Source: Anaerolineae bacterium
GTDB lineage: Bacteria; Chloroflexota; Anaerolineae; Aggregatilineales; Phototrophicaceae
Reading direction: 5' to 3'
DNA length: 64,000 nucleotides
Assembly (NCBI GenBank): GCA_025055175.1
Contig: JANWYT010000006.1
Location: 62,001 to 126,000 of the forward strand
Below are positions 2-60,106 of the stretch, in pieces. The notes under the pieces are model-generated. The model was not told the origin of the DNA. It made no database searches and saw only the letters and a program-made list of their open reading frames with translations. How positions within the stretch are numbered: the stretch's first letter is position 1; the number at the start of each line of letters is the position of its first letter. Both the position numbers and the translations under genes were made by a program.

Positions 2-697
2 AGCGGTCAAGGAGTAGACATTGTGCTAGCCATCGACATCTCTAACAGCATGGCCACGCGCGACTTTGACGACTTAGATAGGCTGAGCGCCGCCAAGCGT
101 GTTAGCGCTAACTTCATCCTGGGCCGCGAATTCGACCGCGTGGGCTTAGTCGTCTTCTCTGAAGATGCACTATATCAAGCGCCGCCTACGCTGGACTACC
201 GCTTGCTGCTTGAGTCGCTGGCTCAGGTCACGTTTGCAGAAGACCTGGGCCTGAGCAACCGCACAGCGCTCGGCATGGGGATTGGCATGGGCCTCAATAT
301 GCTCAGCAGCAGCCAGTCCAACAGTCGAGTCATCATCCTGGTGACGGACGGCGCGAACAACACTGGCAGGATTGATCCCATCACCGCTGCGGAGATGGCG
401 GCAGCTTTGGGAGTGCGCATTTACACGATAGGCGTGGGTACGCCCGCCAGTGGAGACTTGGATTTACTCACCCTGGAAAGGATCGCCAGTATCAGCCGAG
501 GCCGCAGCTTCAACGCTGCTCAACTCAACGATCTGAGCGCTGTCTACGCTGAAATTGACCGTCTGGAGCCTTCTCCTGTGGAGCGTTTGCTCTACACTCA
601 ATGGCAAGAACAGGCTCACCTACCGCTGCTGCTGGCCCTGATTCTGCTCATCGCTGAACGCTTCCTACGTCATACCATCTTTCAGAGTTTGCCATGA
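2..697 (+). CDS. batA: BatA-like VWA-domain membrane protein (5' truncated)
   Basis: The reading frame is open to the left edge, so the N-terminus with its first membrane segments lies outside the window; the first visible residues (SGQGVDIVLAIDISNSM) are already the VWA core. The metal-ion-dependent adhesion site is visible as DISNS, a later NRTALG threonine and LVTDG. A hydrophobic segment (LPLLLALILLIAERFL) near the end is a C-terminal membrane helix, as in BatA/BatB of the aerotolerance operon. The stop overlaps the next start (ATGA). Family members are thought to act in the membrane together with a MoxR ATPase, which would be expected upstream but cannot be seen. Naming it BatA rather than BatB rests only on gene order. 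Confidence 0.85.
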   Translation, partial: SGQGVDIVLAIDISNSMATRDFDDLDRLSAAKRVSANFILGREFDRVGLVVFSEDALYQAPPTLDYRLLLESLAQVTFAEDLGLSNRTALGMGIGMGLNMLSSSQSNSRVIILVTDGANNTGRIDPITAAEMAAALGVRIYTIGVGTPASGDLDLLTLERIASISRGRSFNAAQLNDLSAVYAEIDRLEPSPVERLLYTQWQEQAHLPLLLALILLIAERFLRHTIFQSLP

Positions 698-51518: not shown

Positions 51519-52598
51519 TTAATCACTGGGTAACTCATCGCGCAGAAAACGGGGCTGTGCGCCTAGCAGCTCACCCACGTGCGCCGTCGTACGCGCCTCC
51601 CCCACCAGCACAACAGACGCTTCCTGGCTCAGCAGGCTCGTCTTGACGACACCCATCGCGTAAATCTGGCCATCGGGGGCTGTGACAGCGCTTGTCAGCG
51701 TCCCAACAGACTGACCCTCTGGCGTAGACAGGGCGGCAGGCGCTTGGACAGGCGCTTCAGGATGAAGACGCACCAGAGTGCGCGCTAGCTTGGCGCGGCT
51801 CTCCATGCGCGCAATGACCTCCTGCCCCGTGTAGCAACCCTTGTGGAAGCTCACTTCGTCCCACAGGCCCAGCTCTAGCGGAATGTACTCTTCATTGAGT
51901 TCTGGCAGGCCAGGCACGCCAGCGCGAATGCGCAACACATTGTAGAGTAGCGAGCCGGAGGGACGCGCGCCAGCTTCTTGCAAAGCTTCAAAGACGGAAG
52001 CCGCACCCTCAGCGGGACAGATAATCAGCCAATGTGCGCCACTTAGGGGTTTATTGCGCGCTGCATAGATAACCTGCCCTGCCAGGGTGGTATTCATCCC
52101 CCCCAGAGGCGGCAGAGCAGCGCTATCAGGCAGCAAGCGCGCCATGAGGTCATCAGCTTGTGGGCCGTGCAGGCTGAACTGATGAGTCGTGGAGGTAATG
52201 TCTTGAACCTGAACGTCATCGTTGAAGAAGATATTGCGCTGGAGATAGCGGGCAAATAGTGCGCCATGCCCCGGCAGAGTCACGCACAGCAGACCGTCAG
52301 AGCGATTGTAAGCCGTCACTCGCTCTAGAATGCGCGCAGTGGGCGTGGTGAACAACGTAGGTTGGCCCTGGTCAGGCGCGAGTTTGAGCATATGGTTGGT
52401 GGACATGCGGTTGAGCAGCTCGTGACGCTGGCTGCCCATCACCAGCACGCGACCCTCGTGACTGCGATCCAGCAGCACTACTGCGCTCAGCGCGGTTTGA
52501 TATTCGACTGCCAAATCGCCAAAATCCAGCGGAATGCCGTCTTGTGCCAAGCGCGCACCGTGCTGCTGATACCGTTCTCTGAGCAAACTTTGAGACAT
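51519..52598 (-). CDS. ygfZ: YgfZ/GcvT-like folate-binding protein (iron-sulfur cluster assembly)
   Basis: 359 residues. The YgfZ signature KGCYTGQEVIARM is present at about residue 260, and the N-terminal half has the GcvT-like fold (LLDRSHEGRVLVMGSQRHELLNRM). YgfZ proteins use tetrahydrofolate to assist radical-SAM Fe-S enzyme maturation. It follows gmk by 22 bases on the same strand. Confidence 0.92.
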   Translation of the reverse strand: MSQSLLRERYQQHGARLAQDGIPLDFGDLAVEYQTALSAVVLLDRSHEGRVLVMGSQRHELLNRMSTNHMLKLAPDQGQPTLFTTPTARILERVTAYNRSDGLLCVTLPGHGALFARYLQRNIFFNDDVQVQDITSTTHQFSLHGPQADDLMARLLPDSAALPPLGGMNTTLAGQVIYAARNKPLSGAHWLIICPAEGAASVFEALQEAGARPSGSLLYNVLRIRAGVPGLPELNEEYIPLELGLWDEVSFHKGCYTGQEVIARMESRAKLARTLVRLHPEAPVQAPAALSTPEGQSVGTLTSAVTAPDGQIYAMGVVKTSLLSQEASVVLVGEARTTAHVGELLGAQPRFLRDELPSD

Positions 52599-52620: not shown

Positions 52621-53265
52621 TTAGAGGGTCTGGTGCAGGCGCGCGGTCATGCGCTCCATCACCAAATCGTAAAGGGCTTGTTCGGCGCGCTGGCGGTCGT
52701 CGTTGACGATCACGTAATCGCAGGAGTCAGCGAAGGGCAGTTCAATCTCTTTGGCGCGCTGCAGGCGAGCTTCTACTCGCGCAGCGTCCATGTCTCCGCG
52801 CTTCTCCATGCGCTGGCGCAAGAGGGCCAGGCGCTCTTCATCGCCGCTGCCAGGCACGGTGATGAAGATCGTCACCGAGTCCTGAGGATAGAATTGGCGC
52901 AGAGCCTTCGTGCCAAATACATCAATGTCCAGGATCAGGTTGCGGCCCTCTGCCAGCAACGGCTCTATGCTGGCGCGCGGCGTCCCGTAGTAATCCCCAC
53001 TAGTCACTTCCACGTGTTCAAACAACTCGTCATCATCGATCATCTGGCGGAAGCGCTCGCGGCTGATGAAGTGGTAGTTAACGCCATCCGTCTCGCCCTG
53101 GCGCATGGGACGCGTGGTAGCCGTGACGACGGGTAGGAGCGCGTGCTGGGGGTCGTCGTGCAAGCGTTCAATCACAGCCTGCATAAGGGTATCTTTGCCC
53201 GCTCCACCAGGGCCAACGATGAGGAAGAGAAGTCCACGAGGTGCAACGTTGGGCGTTGTCATCAT
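52621..53265 (-). CDS. gmk: Guanylate kinase
   Basis: 214 residues from ATG 53265; a second ATG at 53262 and a TTG at 53268 are alternatives. The P-loop is VGPGGAGKDTLM, in which the usual GPSGxGK serine is glycine and GKS/T is GKDT. TATTRPMRQGETDGVNYHF is the GMP-binding signature. It phosphorylates GMP to GDP. The glycine-for-serine and GKD substitutions are uncommon but do not remove the P-loop lysine. Confidence 0.93.
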   Translation of the reverse strand: MMTTPNVAPRGLLFLIVGPGGAGKDTLMQAVIERLHDDPQHALLPVVTATTRPMRQGETDGVNYHFISRERFRQMIDDDELFEHVEVTSGDYYGTPRASIEPLLAEGRNLILDIDVFGTKALRQFYPQDSVTIFITVPGSGDEERLALLRQRMEKRGDMDAARVEARLQRAKEIELPFADSCDYVIVNDDRQRAEQALYDLVMERMTARLHQTL

Positions 53266-53300
53266 CAAATACTCGGTTTTCGCTTGCCGATGCCTGCGTT

Positions 53301-53422: not shown

Positions 53423-56400
53423 TTACGGATCGACGACCTGGATGTCGGTGAGCCACCAGCTCACCCGATAGTCGAAGTTTGCGCCAGCCGTGTTGTTGGG
53501 GTGGACGCTGGCCGTCTCTTCGGAGAGGCGATCAATGCGGAAGCGCAGCAGCAACGGCACTGAGCCAGGCCCAGCGTACGCCGACAGGTCGTGAGTACGC
53601 AGCTGCCAGTCGCCCATGTCAGGGGTGTAGGTTGTGCCGCTGATGCGCGGAGAGCTGAAATTGCCTTGTGTCATGCTGAAGCTGATGCGGTTAGGCTGGC
53701 CGCCAGCGAAGTAGTCGAGCTGCAAGACGTGGTGGCCAGGCGGCAGGGTACGGGTGACCGTATGCGTATTCGTACCCTGGAATTCCCAGTCGTCGATTAG
53801 CAGACAGCTCGTGCGTTGCCAGACGGCGCTGGTATCGCCGCGCGTATGGTTGACTTGACCGTTGTTCGGGCCACCGCTGAAGATGTACGTGCCAACAGGA
53901 TTGTTGTTGTCGCGCCACGCGCAGCCTGGTGTGTAGTTGATCCACAGACGGAAGCCATCGTCGCCAGAGACCGTGAACTGATAGGTCGTGTTCACCTGGC
54001 TTGGATCAATGAAGATGCTCTTGAGCCAGCGCACGCTGTAGTTGCTGCTGTTGATCGGCGAGAAAGGATTGGTACTCGACCAGTCGAAGTTCAAGCCAGA
54101 TTGCAAGCCATCATTACGATAACCATTGACGCTGTTGAACGTCGTAATACCAGTCGTTGCTGTCGCGTTCACCGCTAAATTAGGCGTGCCTGTCGGCCTC
54201 CAGCCAGCAGACTGCGTCGGCGCGGTATTCGAGTTATCTGGGAGTGGCGTGTACGCCTTGTAGCCACCCGTCACGCTGAAGTCCAGGCTCGTGTTGTTCC
54301 AGTAGTAGCCGTGCCAGGGGCTAGTAAAGATGCTGGCCGGACGCAGCGCCGTCGTACTGATCGGCCTACCTGACAAGAAGTCCGTCGTCCAGGTGAAGCC
54401 GCCATCGACCGATACTTCAACCTGAACCGCCCCGCCCAACTCGTAGTAGGTATAGTAGTTGAGGACGGGCGCGACGGCCTGCGACAGATCGAGGGCGCTG
54501 TTGAGCATCATCGAGTAGCTGGCGCGTGCCTCTGCGGGGCGCTGCTCGCTGGCCAAGCGACCAGAGCCGACAGGTTGAGCCGCCGTGAACGAGAAGCTGA
54601 ACGAACCGAGGGAGAGCTGGACGGAGGCATCGCCGCTGTTTTCGTAGTATTCCATGACGAAGGTATACTGCGTAAAGGCTTCAATGCGCGCCGAGCTGAC
54701 CGTCGTGGTGCGGGCCTGATCCTGCCAGTTGTTGACGATGTTCCAGGGCGGGTTGCTGTAGGCCGGCGGATCATCAGGCAGGGCTGGCGGCATGGGCGAG
54801 CCATTCGTCTTGAAGTAGCGCAGGCGCACGCCATCATCCGCGCTGGTGATGAAGCTGTAGCGGCCAGGATTGATGCCGCTGACGGGCGTCGTCAGCGTCC
54901 AGCGGTAGGCGAAACGGTCGGTAATGCGCTCGCCATCGCTGCGGCGCGGGCCGCTGCTGCCCCAGTTCTCGCGAATTTCGGTCACAACACCAGTGTCCCA
55001 GCGGTTGGCATTCGTGAAGTTGTTACCCGACAGAGTGCCGTCTAGCGCGCGGCCAATGCAGACGTTGGTAGCCAAGCTACCGCAGCTCAGCGAGACGCGG
55101 TTGGAGCCGCTCGTACCCCAGTTCCAAATGCTGTACGTCCAGGTGCTGTTCAAGCTGCTCGGACCGCCGCCGCTGCCTCTGAAGACTGCTGGCGTGAGAC
55201 CCCAATGGCCTTCGCGCATCCAGTTGAGGGTATTGCGCGCAGCATCGAAGAAAGTCGTCGTGCCAGTCACCTTGCCAATGCGGATGGTGTTTGGATTGTA
55301 GAGCGTCACCTGAACGCCGTCGATGTACCAACCATCGCGGCGTGCGCCACCGTCCAAAGCATCGGCGATGAAGCGGATACGAATGCGCTGACCATCACGC
55401 GTTGTGGTGCGCGCATAGGGGCTGAGGTCGATCTGTTGGCGCGTCCAGGCATAGTTGCGGCTGTTGGTCGCCTGCCAGACCGTCGTCCATGGCCCCCAGC
55501 CCAACTGGCGCTCGTAGCACTGGCGCATATTGGGGTCGACCACGCTGTTAATCGTGCAACTGATGGGTGCAGGATCTTCAACCGAGATTTGCACCTGGAA
55601 GTAATCGGCGTTGCCTGCGAAGTGGCGCGACCAGAAGTATAAAATGGGACGATCCGTGTTCATCGTGCCGCGCAAGTCGATAATGGTGCGCAGTTGCAGC
55701 ACATTGAACGTATCCAAGCGTAGGTCGCCGTTGTTGCCCATCATTGGGCTGGGAATGCTGGCGTTGATGCTGGGCGCGCGGTTGTTCAGATCAGTCGGGA
55801 CAGTGGACGCCACGTGGAAGGAATACAGGCCATCGCGCTGCTCCCAGGTGATTGCTTCCCAGTCGCCACCCATCGACCACAGGTTGGGAAACAGAGCAGC
55901 GTTGTCGGGGTCTAGGAACTCTGTGCCATTGCCCAACGTGTTCGCCGTGTTGTAACGGTTGCGATAGGGCGTGCCGGCAATGCTGTTGCGTGTCTGGCCC
56001 GTCGTCCACAAGGCATGGCTCAGCTCATCGCGCTCTGCAATGCGGATGTTGTCCAAGAAGACACCTTCGTTGCGCGCCGCGCCGTTATTGACCGTCATGC
56101 GGAAGCGCAGCATGATGTCGTCATCAGTGCGGTCGGCGTTGGTACGTGCGTTGGGCGGCAGAGCGTTGAAGATAGGACGCAGATCGACTTCGACCTCTTC
56201 CCAGCCAATGCTGAAACGCGCGCGATCGCCGTTGGCAGGGATGTTGTTGGCCACTGGCGAGCTGCTGCCCGTGATTGGATTGCCCTGGGCAACGCGCATA
56301 CCGTCGGCATAAGCCCACAAGCCACGCCACTGTGTGCTTGGCTCGCTGCGTAGCTTCCATTCGACTGCCAGCGTCACGCCATTGGAGAACAAGCGCTGGT

Positions 56401-59062
56401 GCTGGAAGGTCAACACAGGATCATTGAGCGGCGTGAGCGGCGTCTGGCACAGCGACGAAGGAACGAGATTGCAGCTGGGCGAACGCGGATTCTGCGGCGT
56501 ATCCAGGAACAGGTCGATGGCGTTCTTCAGCTCAAGGATGGCCGTGCTGGGCGAGAGGTACTGGCCAGTGGGCGTATCCGTGTAAGAGAAACCTGTTGTG
56601 TTGGGCAGGGGACGATGACCACCCTCCACGCGCCCCCACGTGCCAATGGGAATCCAATTGGTCAGCAGGTTGTTCTCGTTCTCTACGTCGTCCAAGAACG
56701 GTAGATCGGTGAAGCGCAGGCGGTCAGCGCGCTCTAGACGAATTTGGTCAATCCACCAACCCGGCGTATTCCAGCTCTCATAGTTGCGATGGACGAACAT
56801 AGCGAAGCGGACGCGCACTGGCTGAGCAAAGGGCGTGTCGTTGGCGTTGCGCAGACGGATGGTGACGCGCTCCATGATGGGCAGCTGGCTGCGCGTCGTG
56901 TTGTTGCGATTCACCAGCACGCCATCGGCGAAGGTCGTCCAGGTGGGGTTAAGATTGGTGAACGGATCGGTCGTGTACTGGACTTCCAGGCCCACGAAGC
57001 GGCTCACGTCGTAGGAGTGGTAGAAGGTGAGGATGGGGTCGCCCTGGTCGCCCTCTTCGTCAGTTGCGCCGCGCGGGTCGGCCACGTCAATGAAGCCATT
57101 CCACTCAATCGTGTGAGCGCGCAGGTTGGTCGTGTCGAGCTGGCCTGGTCGGCTCATGTTGTTGTCAGAGAAACGGTCGTCGTAGAAGCTGTGCGTTGTG
57201 CGGTTGGGGCTTTCGTGGAAGCTCGTGCCGCTGCCAAAGGTGCGCTCTGTCGTCAGCTGCCAGTTGCCGCTGGTGACGAAGTCCCTGAGCTGATCGGGGC
57301 TGTCTAGATTCCAGGTCTGGGCTGTGTAGTAAGTCTGACGCTGGACATTGTCAATCCGCATGGAGTCGATATACCAATGGTGGTTACCGCTCGTGCCTTC
57401 ATTGCGCTCAATGACGAAGCGGAACGTCAAGCGGCGGCTCTGGCCTGGCAAAAGGTAGGGCGACAGATCAATCGTGTTGTACGTCCAGTTGAAGTTCCAC
57501 GTGTTGCCAGTGCGCAGCGGGATGGTCTGCCAATTCAGACGGCTACGATCCGCTGGGGAACTGATGAGTGTACCAGTGTTAGCAGGATCGTAGTTGGCAA
57601 CTTGCAGATAGGCGCGCGCACCTGGCGAAGAACCTAAGTTCCAAACATCCCAGAAGGTAAGAGCAGGGTTGGTTATGGTCGGCGGAATCTCAACCGCGCC
57701 GCGCAGTTCTAGGTGGCAACGGTTGCCAGCAGGGATACTGTCCCAGATACCGGCAGCGATGTACTCCTTCCATCCATGATCCAACGTGTCGGTGCGAGCA
57801 TCTGCGAAGTTTCTCCAGCGGCAGTCTATTATACCGCTGGTAGGCAGACCAGCTGAGTTGACGCGCGTGTCATCAGGGTTTGTGCTGCGGTTGGGCGTAG
57901 CGTCAAAGATTTCCAGCCGCACTCGCGCAGTGTTCACGCGCTCCGCAAAATCGAGTTGCAAGGTGTACTGACCCGGCGGCACAGTGCGGGTGAAGTGGAT
58001 GCTACGGCTGACTGGCAAATCTTGGCTCGTCCAGTTCTCCGCCAGCAAACACTCTGTGGGAATCTGATTGCCAGGCCCTACAGGATTGTTCGGGTCGAAC
58101 CCCAAGCCCAGATTGTTGTACAGTTGCCAATGATTGTTGTTTGTGGTACGGTTAGCAGGCGTTGTGTAGGGGTTTCCACCAAAGCCTGCGCTGTCCAAGC
58201 CACTGTAGAGAGGCCCGCCGCTAGTCACCCTGACCGACGTATTGTCGCGGCGTACGGCGTTAGAACAGTTGCCGGGGCCGCCGTTGATGACGCTGGGGTT
58301 GCCGCCGTAAATGCCGCCCAAAATCCACAAGCGCACTGCATCCTCAACGTTAGATAGCTGGAAGCGCAGCGTCGTGTTGCCCATCTCTGGAGTGATGGTG
58401 ATGGTGCGCCGCCAAACCACGCCGAAGTTATCGGTCTGCCAACCAGCAATCGGCGAATTCGTACCCCAGTTGAAATCGATAATGCCCGTGAAGGCCGGAT
58501 CAATCTCCTGATTGTAGAGACTGTGGGCCGCAGCTCCTGTGAGTTGCGTGTTGGGATAGTACAGCCCGTACCAATCCGCAGAACCTAAGAACAGCGCGTT
58601 GTCGACGCGCCAATGCCTGACTGTCTCTGGGTTGCCTGTGTCTGTCCAGGGCGCCATGTGGATGATATCTTGCGGCGTCGGCGACGGTGACGGCGTGAAC
58701 GTCGGCGTCCAGGTCGGAGAGGGTGTAATGGGCGTGTTCGTGGGCGAGGGACCTGATGTCGGTGGCAGGGTAGGCGGTGCGAGCGTGCGCGTGGCCAGCG
58801 GAGTCTCTTGAGGCGTCTGCGTTGCTACCCAAGTCACTGTCAGCCAGAATTGCTCCACGCCAGGCAGTTGAGCAATCGTGCGCGGGTCTGCGCCAACTAA
58901 ATTGACGACCGTATTGCTGAAGACATTGCCAATTGCTGGCCCAGTAGCAGCCAGAGCAAAGCCAAAGGCCAGGATCGCCAGCACAACAATCAGCGTGTAT
59001 TCTACCAGCGACTGACCGCTCTCCTGGGGACGTGGGTGTTTTAGAGGCGTCGTTTCGGCCAT
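53423..59062 (-). CDS. Giant surface protein with Flp-type prepilin leader and repeated PA14/ConA-like domains
   Basis: 1879 residues from ATG 59062, with GAGGGA 7 bases upstream; the frame stays open to 59410 but that part crosses the folD start. The N-terminus carries a class III (type IVb) prepilin leader: cleavage is expected at Gly16/Gln17 in QESGQSLVEYTL, with Glu at +5 and the EY pair, then a hydrophobic helix to about residue 55. A Pro/Thr linker (about 80-130) follows. Then come three PA14-like domains (near 150-380, about 1265-1425 and about 1600-1780) and several jelly-roll domains ending in motifs such as YIDSMRIDNV, WWIDQIRLE, FLDNIRIAE and YIDGVQVTL. It has 12 cysteines in six sequential pairs and only eight lysines. 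It probably sits outside the cell, anchored by or assembled like a pseudopilin, and binds glycans (inference). Confidence 0.85.
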   Translation of the reverse strand: MAETTPLKHPRPQESGQSLVEYTLIVVLAILAFGFALAATGPAIGNVFSNTVVNLVGADPRTIAQLPGVEQFWLTVTWVATQTPQETPLATRTLAPPTLPPTSGPSPTNTPITPSPTWTPTFTPSPSPTPQDIIHMAPWTDTGNPETVRHWRVDNALFLGSADWYGLYYPNTQLTGAAAHSLYNQEIDPAFTGIIDFNWGTNSPIAGWQTDNFGVVWRRTITITPEMGNTTLRFQLSNVEDAVRLWILGGIYGGNPSVINGGPGNCSNAVRRDNTSVRVTSGGPLYSGLDSAGFGGNPYTTPANRTTNNNHWQLYNNLGLGFDPNNPVGPGNQIPTECLLAENWTSQDLPVSRSIHFTRTVPPGQYTLQLDFAERVNTARVRLEIFDATPNRSTNPDDTRVNSAGLPTSGIIDCRWRNFADARTDTLDHGWKEYIAAGIWDSIPAGNRCHLELRGAVEIPPTITNPALTFWDVWNLGSSPGARAYLQVANYDPANTGTLISSPADRSRLNWQTIPLRTGNTWNFNWTYNTIDLSPYLLPGQSRRLTFRFVIERNEGTSGNHHWYIDSMRIDNVQRQTYYTAQTWNLDSPDQLRDFVTSGNWQLTTERTFGSGTSFHESPNRTTHSFYDDRFSDNNMSRPGQLDTTNLRAHTIEWNGFIDVADPRGATDEEGDQGDPILTFYHSYDVSRFVGLEVQYTTDPFTNLNPTWTTFADGVLVNRNNTTRSQLPIMERVTIRLRNANDTPFAQPVRVRFAMFVHRNYESWNTPGWWIDQIRLERADRLRFTDLPFLDDVENENNLLTNWIPIGTWGRVEGGHRPLPNTTGFSYTDTPTGQYLSPSTAILELKNAIDLFLDTPQNPRSPSCNLVPSSLCQTPLTPLNDPVLTFQHQRLFSNGVTLAVEWKLRSEPSTQWRGLWAYADGMRVAQGNPITGSSSPVANNIPANGDRARFSIGWEEVEVDLRPIFNALPPNARTNADRTDDDIMLRFRMTVNNGAARNEGVFLDNIRIAERDELSHALWTTGQTRNSIAGTPYRNRYNTANTLGNGTEFLDPDNAALFPNLWSMGGDWEAITWEQRDGLYSFHVASTVPTDLNNRAPSINASIPSPMMGNNGDLRLDTFNVLQLRTIIDLRGTMNTDRPILYFWSRHFAGNADYFQVQISVEDPAPISCTINSVVDPNMRQCYERQLGWGPWTTVWQATNSRNYAWTRQQIDLSPYARTTTRDGQRIRIRFIADALDGGARRDGWYIDGVQVTLYNPNTIRIGKVTGTTTFFDAARNTLNWMREGHWGLTPAVFRGSGGGPSSLNSTWTYSIWNWGTSGSNRVSLSCGSLATNVCIGRALDGTLSGNNFTNANRWDTGVVTEIRENWGSSGPRRSDGERITDRFAYRWTLTTPVSGINPGRYSFITSADDGVRLRYFKTNGSPMPPALPDDPPAYSNPPWNIVNNWQDQARTTTVSSARIEAFTQYTFVMEYYENSGDASVQLSLGSFSFSFTAAQPVGSGRLASEQRPAEARASYSMMLNSALDLSQAVAPVLNYYTYYELGGAVQVEVSVDGGFTWTTDFLSGRPISTTALRPASIFTSPWHGYYWNNTSLDFSVTGGYKAYTPLPDNSNTAPTQSAGWRPTGTPNLAVNATATTGITTFNSVNGYRNDGLQSGLNFDWSSTNPFSPINSSNYSVRWLKSIFIDPSQVNTTYQFTVSGDDGFRLWINYTPGCAWRDNNNPVGTYIFSGGPNNGQVNHTRGDTSAVWQRTSCLLIDDWEFQGTNTHTVTRTLPPGHHVLQLDYFAGGQPNRISFSMTQGNFSSPRISGTTYTPDMGDWQLRTHDLSAYAGPGSVPLLLRFRIDRLSEETASVHPNNTAGANFDYRVSWWLTDIQVVDP

Positions 59063-59218: not shown

Positions 59219-60106
59219 ATGAGCGCGCAGATACTCAACGGTCAAGACATAGCAGACCGTCTCCAGGCCCAAATTGCCCATGAGGTAGAAGCTTTCAAAG
59301 GACGCTACGGAATTGTGCCAGGGCTTGGCGTGGTCATGGCTGGCGACAACCCTGCTTCGGCGCAATACGTGCGCATGAAGCGCAAAGCCTGCGAGAAAGT
59401 TGGCATTCATTCAGTGACCCATTTGGTCAATTCTAGCACGCCGCAGGACGAGGTACTCAGCTTGGTGCGCGCGCTGAACGATGATCCACTCATTCACGGC
59501 GTCCTGGTTCAGCTCCCCTTACCTGCGCACATTGACGAAGTTGCCGTCTTGTCAGCGGTCGGTTTGGAGAAGGACGTGGACGGCTTTCACCCTCTCAACA
59601 TCGGCGCGCTGGCCATGAAGGGCCGCGAGCCGAGCTTTGTGCCGGCGACTCCTAGCGGCTGCATGGTGCTGCTGCGAGAAGCAGGCGTCGAGCTGGATGG
59701 TGCAAACGCCGTCATTCTGGGTCGCAGCAACATCGTCGGCCTGCCTATGACCCTGCTGCTCATGAAGGCCAACGCCACTGTGACCGTCTGCCACAGTCGT
59801 ACTCGTGGCCTGGCCGACGTGGTACGCCGCGCTGACGTGCTGATCGCTGCCGTTGGGCGCGCCGAGATGGTGCGTGGAGACTGGATCAAGCACGGCGCCG
59901 TCGTGATCGACGTAGGGACGAACAAGGTCGATGATCCTAGCAGTGATAAAGGCTACAAAATCGTGGGCGACGTGCATTTCCCCAGCGCAGTCGAAGTCGC
60001 CAGCGTCATCACCAAAGTCCCTGGCGGGGTCGGCCCGATGACGATCACCATGCTGCTCAGCAACACGCTCAAAGCTGCCAGACAGCACGTGGGCGAGAAA
60101 GTCTAG
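59219..60106 (+). CDS. folD: Methylenetetrahydrofolate dehydrogenase/cyclohydrolase
   Basis: 295 residues. The signatures YVRMKRKACEKVGI (catalytic Lys), VQLPLPAHID, DVDGFHPLNIG and ILGRSNIVGLPMTLLL are diagnostic of FolD. It interconverts methylene- and formyl-tetrahydrofolate with NADP. AGAAGG precedes the ATG. It is divergent from the giant surface protein gene and lies 78 bases before the 8-oxoguanine-deaminase-like gene. Confidence 0.97.
   Translation: MSAQILNGQDIADRLQAQIAHEVEAFKGRYGIVPGLGVVMAGDNPASAQYVRMKRKACEKVGIHSVTHLVNSSTPQDEVLSLVRALNDDPLIHGVLVQLPLPAHIDEVAVLSAVGLEKDVDGFHPLNIGALAMKGREPSFVPATPSGCMVLLREAGVELDGANAVILGRSNIVGLPMTLLLMKANATVTVCHSRTRGLADVVRRADVLIAAVGRAEMVRGDWIKHGAVVIDVGTNKVDDPSSDKGYKIVGDVHFPSAVEVASVITKVPGGVGPMTITMLLSNTLKAARQHVGEKV

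Follow-up and report, generated by a model that had tools for sequence, protein, structure and literature searches.

The locus raises the question of how a protein that begins as a Flp pilin can continue for about 1,750 residues as an adhesin, and whether such a product belongs to a pilus at all. The original prediction, made from the letters of the window (the whole stretch of Anaerolineae DNA analysed here, 64,000 nucleotides), was a 1879-residue protein at 53423-59062, possibly a surface adhesin exported and anchored through the pilus machinery. We think it probable that this protein, here called the giant, is a modular minor pilin of unusual size in a secretin-less Tad (type IVc/Flp) pilus and that it displays a lectin-like adhesin. 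The predicted coordinates are right; the reading frame is encoded by the minus strand, and 53423-59062 has many stops when read on the plus strand.

53423..59062, minus strand: whole gene, 1,879 aa (209 kDa), Flp-type prepilin plus multidomain adhesin (open reading frame, 28-sequence alignment)

The ATG start is at 59060-59062, with a GAGGG motif a few bases 5' of it. The N-terminus reads MAETTPLKHPRPQESG followed, across the predicted cleavage site, by QSLVEYTLIVVLAILAFGFALAATGPAIGNVFSNTVVNLVG: a hydrophilic leader ends in Gly and is followed by Gln, with Glu at +5 and Tyr at +6. The helix that comes next is the sole strongly hydrophobic segment of the protein, and the C-terminus, SWWLTDIQVVDP, has neither an LPXTG motif nor a membrane segment. 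The 12 Cys residues fall into six neighbouring pairs, one of which (C414, C449) is invariant, as expected of a protein outside the cell. Searches of the giant with Pfam and NCBIfam gave no match to a catalytic domain. The head of the protein divides as follows (arrow, predicted cleavage).

59015..59062, minus strand: prepilin leader, residues 1-16, predicted prepilin peptidase site G16↓Q17 (sequence, 28-homologue alignment)
58889..59014, minus strand: Flp pilin helix, residues 17-58 (AlphaFold helix 18-56, conservation, PF04964 in 13/40 homologues, alignment with the genome's own Flp)
58820..58858, minus strand: short second helix, residues 69-81, with conserved F72-W73 (alignment, AlphaFold)
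58673..58813, minus strand: flexible linker rich in Pro, Thr and Ser, residues 84-130 (pLDDT below 50 over most of it)

The leader is of the Flp/type IVb kind, short and hydrophilic, ending in Gly and with Glu at +5 and Tyr at +6 (G16↓QSLVEY). In the 28-homologue alignment, M1, Q17, E21, and Y22 are invariant and G16 is kept in at least 90% of sequences. The pattern [G/A]↓Q[AS]xxEY occurs in all 30 homologue loci with a readable N-terminus, a fair test as it was resemblance along the protein body, and not the motif, that selected them. The leader that had been read from the one sequence (G16/Q17, E+5, EY) is thus common to the group. Across 54 homologues the leader has 5-28 residues and a median charge of +3; these sequences were chosen by the motif, so conservation counts on them are circular for E+5 and Y+6. 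Of the 1,072 segments of 43 residues in a 40-homologue alignment, the one that begins with G16 ranks first for conservation. The mature helix is 57% identical over 37 residues to the genome's own small Flp pilin, which reads EEGQGLVEYALILVLVAVVVIVILALLGPTIGNIFSNIV. The giant itself has no match to PF04964 (Flp_Fap), and the 13 matches among 40 homologues are at E ≤ 0.01 (best E 1.2e-4). Since even the small Flp pilins encoded by this genome fall short of the cut-off, we regard the model as insensitive in this lineage. The pilin modules PF07811 and PF13400 likewise find no match in the giant, and a TadE-type pseudopilin was rejected because PF07811 is missing. A plain Flp pilin has about 50-80 residues and is all helical; the giant has 1,879 residues with long helices in 17-81 only and is therefore a fusion, in which a pilin module and a non-pilin functional module are kept in one chain across homologues (alignment, AlphaFold, and structure matches). 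The predicted Pro/Thr linker is borne out, residues 84-128 being 71% Pro, Thr, or Ser and of low confidence in AlphaFold.

The hydrophobic stretch could in principle belong to a Sec signal peptide, with signal peptidase I cutting beyond it (for example ALA↓A near residue 39) and a product secreted with no link to a pilus. Indeed, 35/54 homologues (the set chosen by the motif) have an A-x-A rightly placed beyond the stretch. We nevertheless consider this very unlikely based on the following observations: a signal peptide needs neither the invariant Q17, E21, and Y22 nor the nearly invariant G16, the segment past the would-be cut is as conserved as it is in Flp pilins, the divergent homologues L110, L116, and L121 lose ALAAT yet keep the pilin motif, and the co-occurrence with Tad genes described below would be left without explanation.

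Beyond the linker, AlphaFold models of residues 1-800 (mean pLDDT 77) and 781-1879 (mean pLDDT 79) place a series of beta domains after the long helix (18-56), the short helix (69-81), and the disordered linker. Foldseek and VIA-align matched these to reelin, MAM, and carbohydrate-binding jelly rolls and to PA14. The domains, with approximate boundaries, are as follows.

57335..58672, minus strand: jelly roll 1, residues 131-155 plus about 396-576, with a nested PA14 domain (VIA-align to meprin MAM, Z 13.6-14 over model residues 136..574; reelin)
57878..58597, minus strand: PA14 domain 1, about residues 156-395, inside jelly roll 1 (VIA-align to 6qdi)
56723..57334, minus strand: jelly roll 2, residues about 577-780 (reelin-type match, models)
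56027..56722, minus strand: jelly roll 3, residues about 781-1012 (MAM match, from model residue 6)
55289..56026, minus strand: jelly roll 4, residues about 1013-1258, InhA-like MAM (PF20773; 4yu5 at Z 11.3, rmsd 2.0)
53426..55288, minus strand: jelly roll 5, residues about 1259-1879, split by PA14 domains 2 and 3 (alignment, models)
54590..55150, minus strand: PA14 domain 2, about residues 1305-1491, with the D1409-D1410-G pair (VIA-align to 6m8m; profile match to RsgI3)
53663..54235, minus strand: PA14 domain 3, about residues 1610-1800, with the D1701-D1702-G pair (Pfam PA14, VIA-align)

The original prediction described this body as about 1,750 residues of PA14 and ConA-like repeats. The PA14 part stands, with three copies, one recognised by Pfam and two more by structure; the ConA-like part is better described as jelly rolls of the reelin, MAM, and CBM types. 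By VIA-align, domain 1 superposes on the RsgI-type PA14 of 6qdi over 161..390 (Z 13.4, rmsd 2.2, 124 residues aligned, 25% identity) and domain 2 on the sugar-binding PA14 of an RTX adhesin, 6m8m (Z 12.9, 148 aligned). In a profile search of solved structures, domain 2 also matches the PA14 of RsgI3 at E 1.1e-21 over a region that spans the DDGVRL motif. Domain 3 is found by PF07691 at 1658-1709 (E 2.5e-6, 27.8 bits against a cut-off of 24) and aligns with sugar-bound Marinomonas PA14 structures at Z about 11.6 (VIA-align); it is present in only a minority of homologues (occupancy 0.16 in the homologue alignment). PF20773 of jelly roll 4 was found in 31/38 homologous segments. In the models, the PA14 domains seem to lie within jelly rolls as insertions. 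For the first pair this rests on meprin MAM, which aligns about 150-160 residues spread over 136..574, the 6qdi PA14 fitting inside 161..390.

The hallmark of sugar-binding PA14 lectins is an adjacent Asp pair (D-cis-D) with a calcium ion that touches the sugar. In MhPA14, the sugar is in contact with a calcium ion held in this way (PMC6650083). The giant has DDG at 1409-1410 and 1701-1702, and copy 2 was aligned with RsgI3 over this motif. Judging by the fold and the Asp pair, we suggest that the ligand is most likely a glycan, bound via calcium-loaded PA14 sites.

If the protein is a pilus subunit, there should be a pilus machine to assemble it. The statement that no tad genes are nearby is right for the 64-kb window, in which none was found, but not for the genome. 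Contig C12 carries CpaB/RcpC, TadZ, TadA, TadB, and TadC, and about 25-30 kb away from this set on the same contig are two TadE proteins, of 857 and 467 aa, and a TadG-like protein of 1,046 aa with PF13400 (L132:2966-10105). The 857-aa protein has Pro/Thr linkers and itself looks modular. Flp genes are located on C32 and C7; those on C32 (G000:C32:141105-141504) are two in tandem, and the matched frame of the first contains a stop (TAA). The giant is unlinked to the tad genes, both in its own genome and in the relatives examined.

The absence of a prepilin peptidase from the genome had been named as evidence that would refute the original prediction. No A24 prepilin peptidase was found in this assembly; the assembly, however, is 89% complete, and 93/98 genomes of the family have the enzyme, including G056 of the sister genus. 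An assembly gap therefore seems likelier than true loss. Genomes that lack TadB/TadC (e.g. G061, G066, and G078) nearly all still have an A24 peptidase. Secretin is a different matter, being absent in 97/98 family genomes; the sole matches come from a single MAG, which has one copy on each of two contigs (G014:C143 and C138), possibly a contamination. The Chloroflexota tad gene lists, in the accessible parts of two reports, name no secretin (PMC7332563, PMC13319060).

A whole-protein search detected a homologue of the giant in 56/98 genomes of the same family, with E 1e-15 as the upper limit for scoring presence; this number includes a few fragments located at contig ends as well as G053, whose match is confined to the N-terminus. 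The giant is found in 56/60 genomes with TadB/TadC and in 0/38 without (Fisher p 5e-23, 98 family genomes). As the genomes are related, we also counted by genus, where the giant occurs in 19/21 Tad-bearing groups and 0/4 Tad-less ones (p 0.0012). In the searched family, the giant is thus seen only alongside the Tad machine, and it probably rides on the Tad pilus. The four genomes with TadB/TadC and no giant (G028, G057, G096, and G097) identify it as an accessory part that the Tad machine does not need. Very large TadE-led reading frames (1,138-1,578 aa) are found in G057:C161, G028:C208, G097:C751 and C524, G030:C21, G036:C6, and G016:C67; three of these genomes bear Tad and lack the Flp-headed giant, and the TadE-led frames may be alternative giant pilins.

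The same counts bear on a simpler possibility, a membrane-anchored surface protein whose leader is cut by prepilin peptidase and whose pilin helix is an anchor only, never entering a filament. That the gene is unlinked to tad genes, that the helix is the protein's sole hydrophobic anchor, and that almost every relative has an A24 peptidase, including those that lack TadB/TadC, would all suit such a protein. It should, however, survive where Tad is missing, yet none of the 38 TadB/TadC-less genomes has it even though nearly all keep A24, and the entire Flp helix, its second half too, is conserved like a packing surface. We therefore judge anchoring alone to be unlikely.

The genomic site is fixed, in the order folD, giant, gmk, ygfZ.

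59219..60106, plus strand: folD, divergent neighbour and conserved flank, upstream of the giant in relatives (tblastn)
52621..53268, minus strand: gmk (guanylate kinase), downstream conserved flank (tblastn)
51519..52598, minus strand: ygfZ-like folate-binding protein, second downstream conserved flank (tblastn)

Using the window's neighbours as tblastn queries, we found folD beside the giant in 42/62 relative loci, gmk in 39/62, and ygfZ in 33/62, the 62 including four duplicates of others. We also looked at nine giant-less genomes, of which three have TadB/TadC and six do not. Eight have folD and gmk adjacent, with a gap of about 90-270 bp and nothing like the giant in between; the exception is G001, where folD has other neighbours and the stretch examined holds no gmk. 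Together with the fixed site, this adjacency fits an old, vertically inherited gene that may have been cleanly lost in some lineages. A recently acquired adhesin was rejected, the folD-gmk site being fixed across the family.

Among the matches listed in a wider contig search, on which the spread beyond the family rests, relatives of this architecture come almost exclusively from MAGs labelled Anaerolineae or Chloroflexi; members that seem complete have between about 1,270 and about 2,000 residues. MAGs account for nearly all of the named homologues. One homologue, L103 (JAHHHY010000019.1), is in a MAG titled Pleurocapsa minor, a cyanobacterium; its neighbour genes match Anaerolineae loci, and the bin is thus likely mislabelled or contaminated. 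A frameshift or chance fusion was rejected, as dozens of genomes have the same architecture. In sum, the checks proposed with the original prediction gave a Tad set on another contig plus Flp pilins, three PA14 copies above the Pfam cut-off or by structure match, and the same architecture in 56/98 family genomes with the pilin motif at 30/30 readable N-termini. A surface adhesin exported and anchored through the pilus machinery is the claim best supported by the computational evidence: Tad is in the genome, the helix resembles that of its Flp pilin, and in the 98 family genomes the protein is never seen without TadB/TadC.

We propose that prepilin peptidase cuts the leader after G16 and that the mature Flp-type helix would then sit in the membrane like the major Flp pilin, from where TadA and TadB/TadC would build it into the filament. 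The Pro/Thr linker would hold the jelly-roll and PA14 domains, about 1,750 residues, clear of the filament, where they would act as an adhesin, most likely for glycans, as the fold and the DD pair suggest. Arguing from absence, the lack of a detectable secretin suggests that so bulky a subunit would not need to cross a narrow outer-membrane pore. We also considered that Tad might serve as a secretion system, pushing the giant out like a pseudopilin and releasing it. Tad and type II secretion machines are related, and in its multidomain body the giant is similar to secreted carbohydrate-binding proteins; Pfam and NCBIfam, however, revealed no catalytic domain, no release site is known, and the helix looks like one from a Flp pilin that polymerises, not like one from a TadE pseudopilin. 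We give release very little credence.

For a displayed minor pilin, placement at the tip and display along the side are equally possible; the latter would be allowed by the flexible linker and by a pilin part that has no globular head. Taken further, the Anaerolineae Tad filament might be a multivalent lectin fibre, on which an adhesin of 1,300-2,000 residues is mounted via an ordinary Flp helix off the side of the shaft, in many copies per pilus and not as a tip cap, the position assumed for the modular pilins studied so far. We offer this more specific picture tentatively and think it rather doubtful.

Tad pilins are the smallest type IV pilins. If the minor pilin model is true, they can bear very large cargo, and a secretin-less filament can display about 190 kDa of folded domains. 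The giant would also be a candidate adhesin for Anaerolineae aggregation in sludge, anammox, and marine systems, for which we know of no Tad pilus adhesive molecule, and it would give a defined gene with which to ask where on a pilus, tip or shaft, modular pilins are placed.

The closest parallel is with modular type IV pilins, such as PilB (vWA) and PilC (lectin) of Streptococcus sanguinis, which, like the giant, join a functional domain to a small N-terminal pilin so that the pilus can display it; PA14-bearing forms are among the common architectures (PMC8179133). Their pilin motif is IPR012902, and the pilin head of PilB is globular (PMC8179133), whereas the giant has an all-helical Tad-type Flp and a flexible linker. 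The most extreme multi-domain pilin of that survey has 860 residues (PMC8179133), and the body of the giant is about twice that size. TadG/CpaL of Caulobacter and the KilN-type tip pilins of Myxococcus, for which tip placement has been argued or modelled (PMC12607857, PMC12075869), are also large Tad minor pilins with extra C-terminal domains. Their pilin module, however, has a beta-stranded head, whereas the giant combines a Flp helix with PA14 domains and jelly rolls and lies between folD and gmk, in a genome that has TadE and TadG-like proteins of its own besides. Flp-type minor pilins of the Tad filament are like the giant in type but are short and all-helical, are modelled as adapters under the tip, and carry no large domain. 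RTX adhesins with PA14, such as MhLap (PMC6650083), are likewise very large and share the sugar-binding PA14 fold, copies 2 and 3 matching 6m8m and 6x8d; they exit by type I secretion, whereas the predicted route and anchor of the giant are the pilin helix and the Tad machine. The Chloroflexota Tad pili (PMC7332563, PMC13319060, PMC4877987) have, as far as the accessible parts of these reports go, the same set of rcpC/cpaB, tadZ, tadA, tadB, tadC, tadE, tadG, and flp, and those parts describe no giant Flp-headed subunit. Nor did we find a description of a Flp-headed adhesin of such size in the searchable part of the literature. Modular pilins with IPR012902, including PA14-bearing ones, and large TadG-type Tad tip pilins are known; what is new is the Flp-headed giant as a variant of modular pilins.
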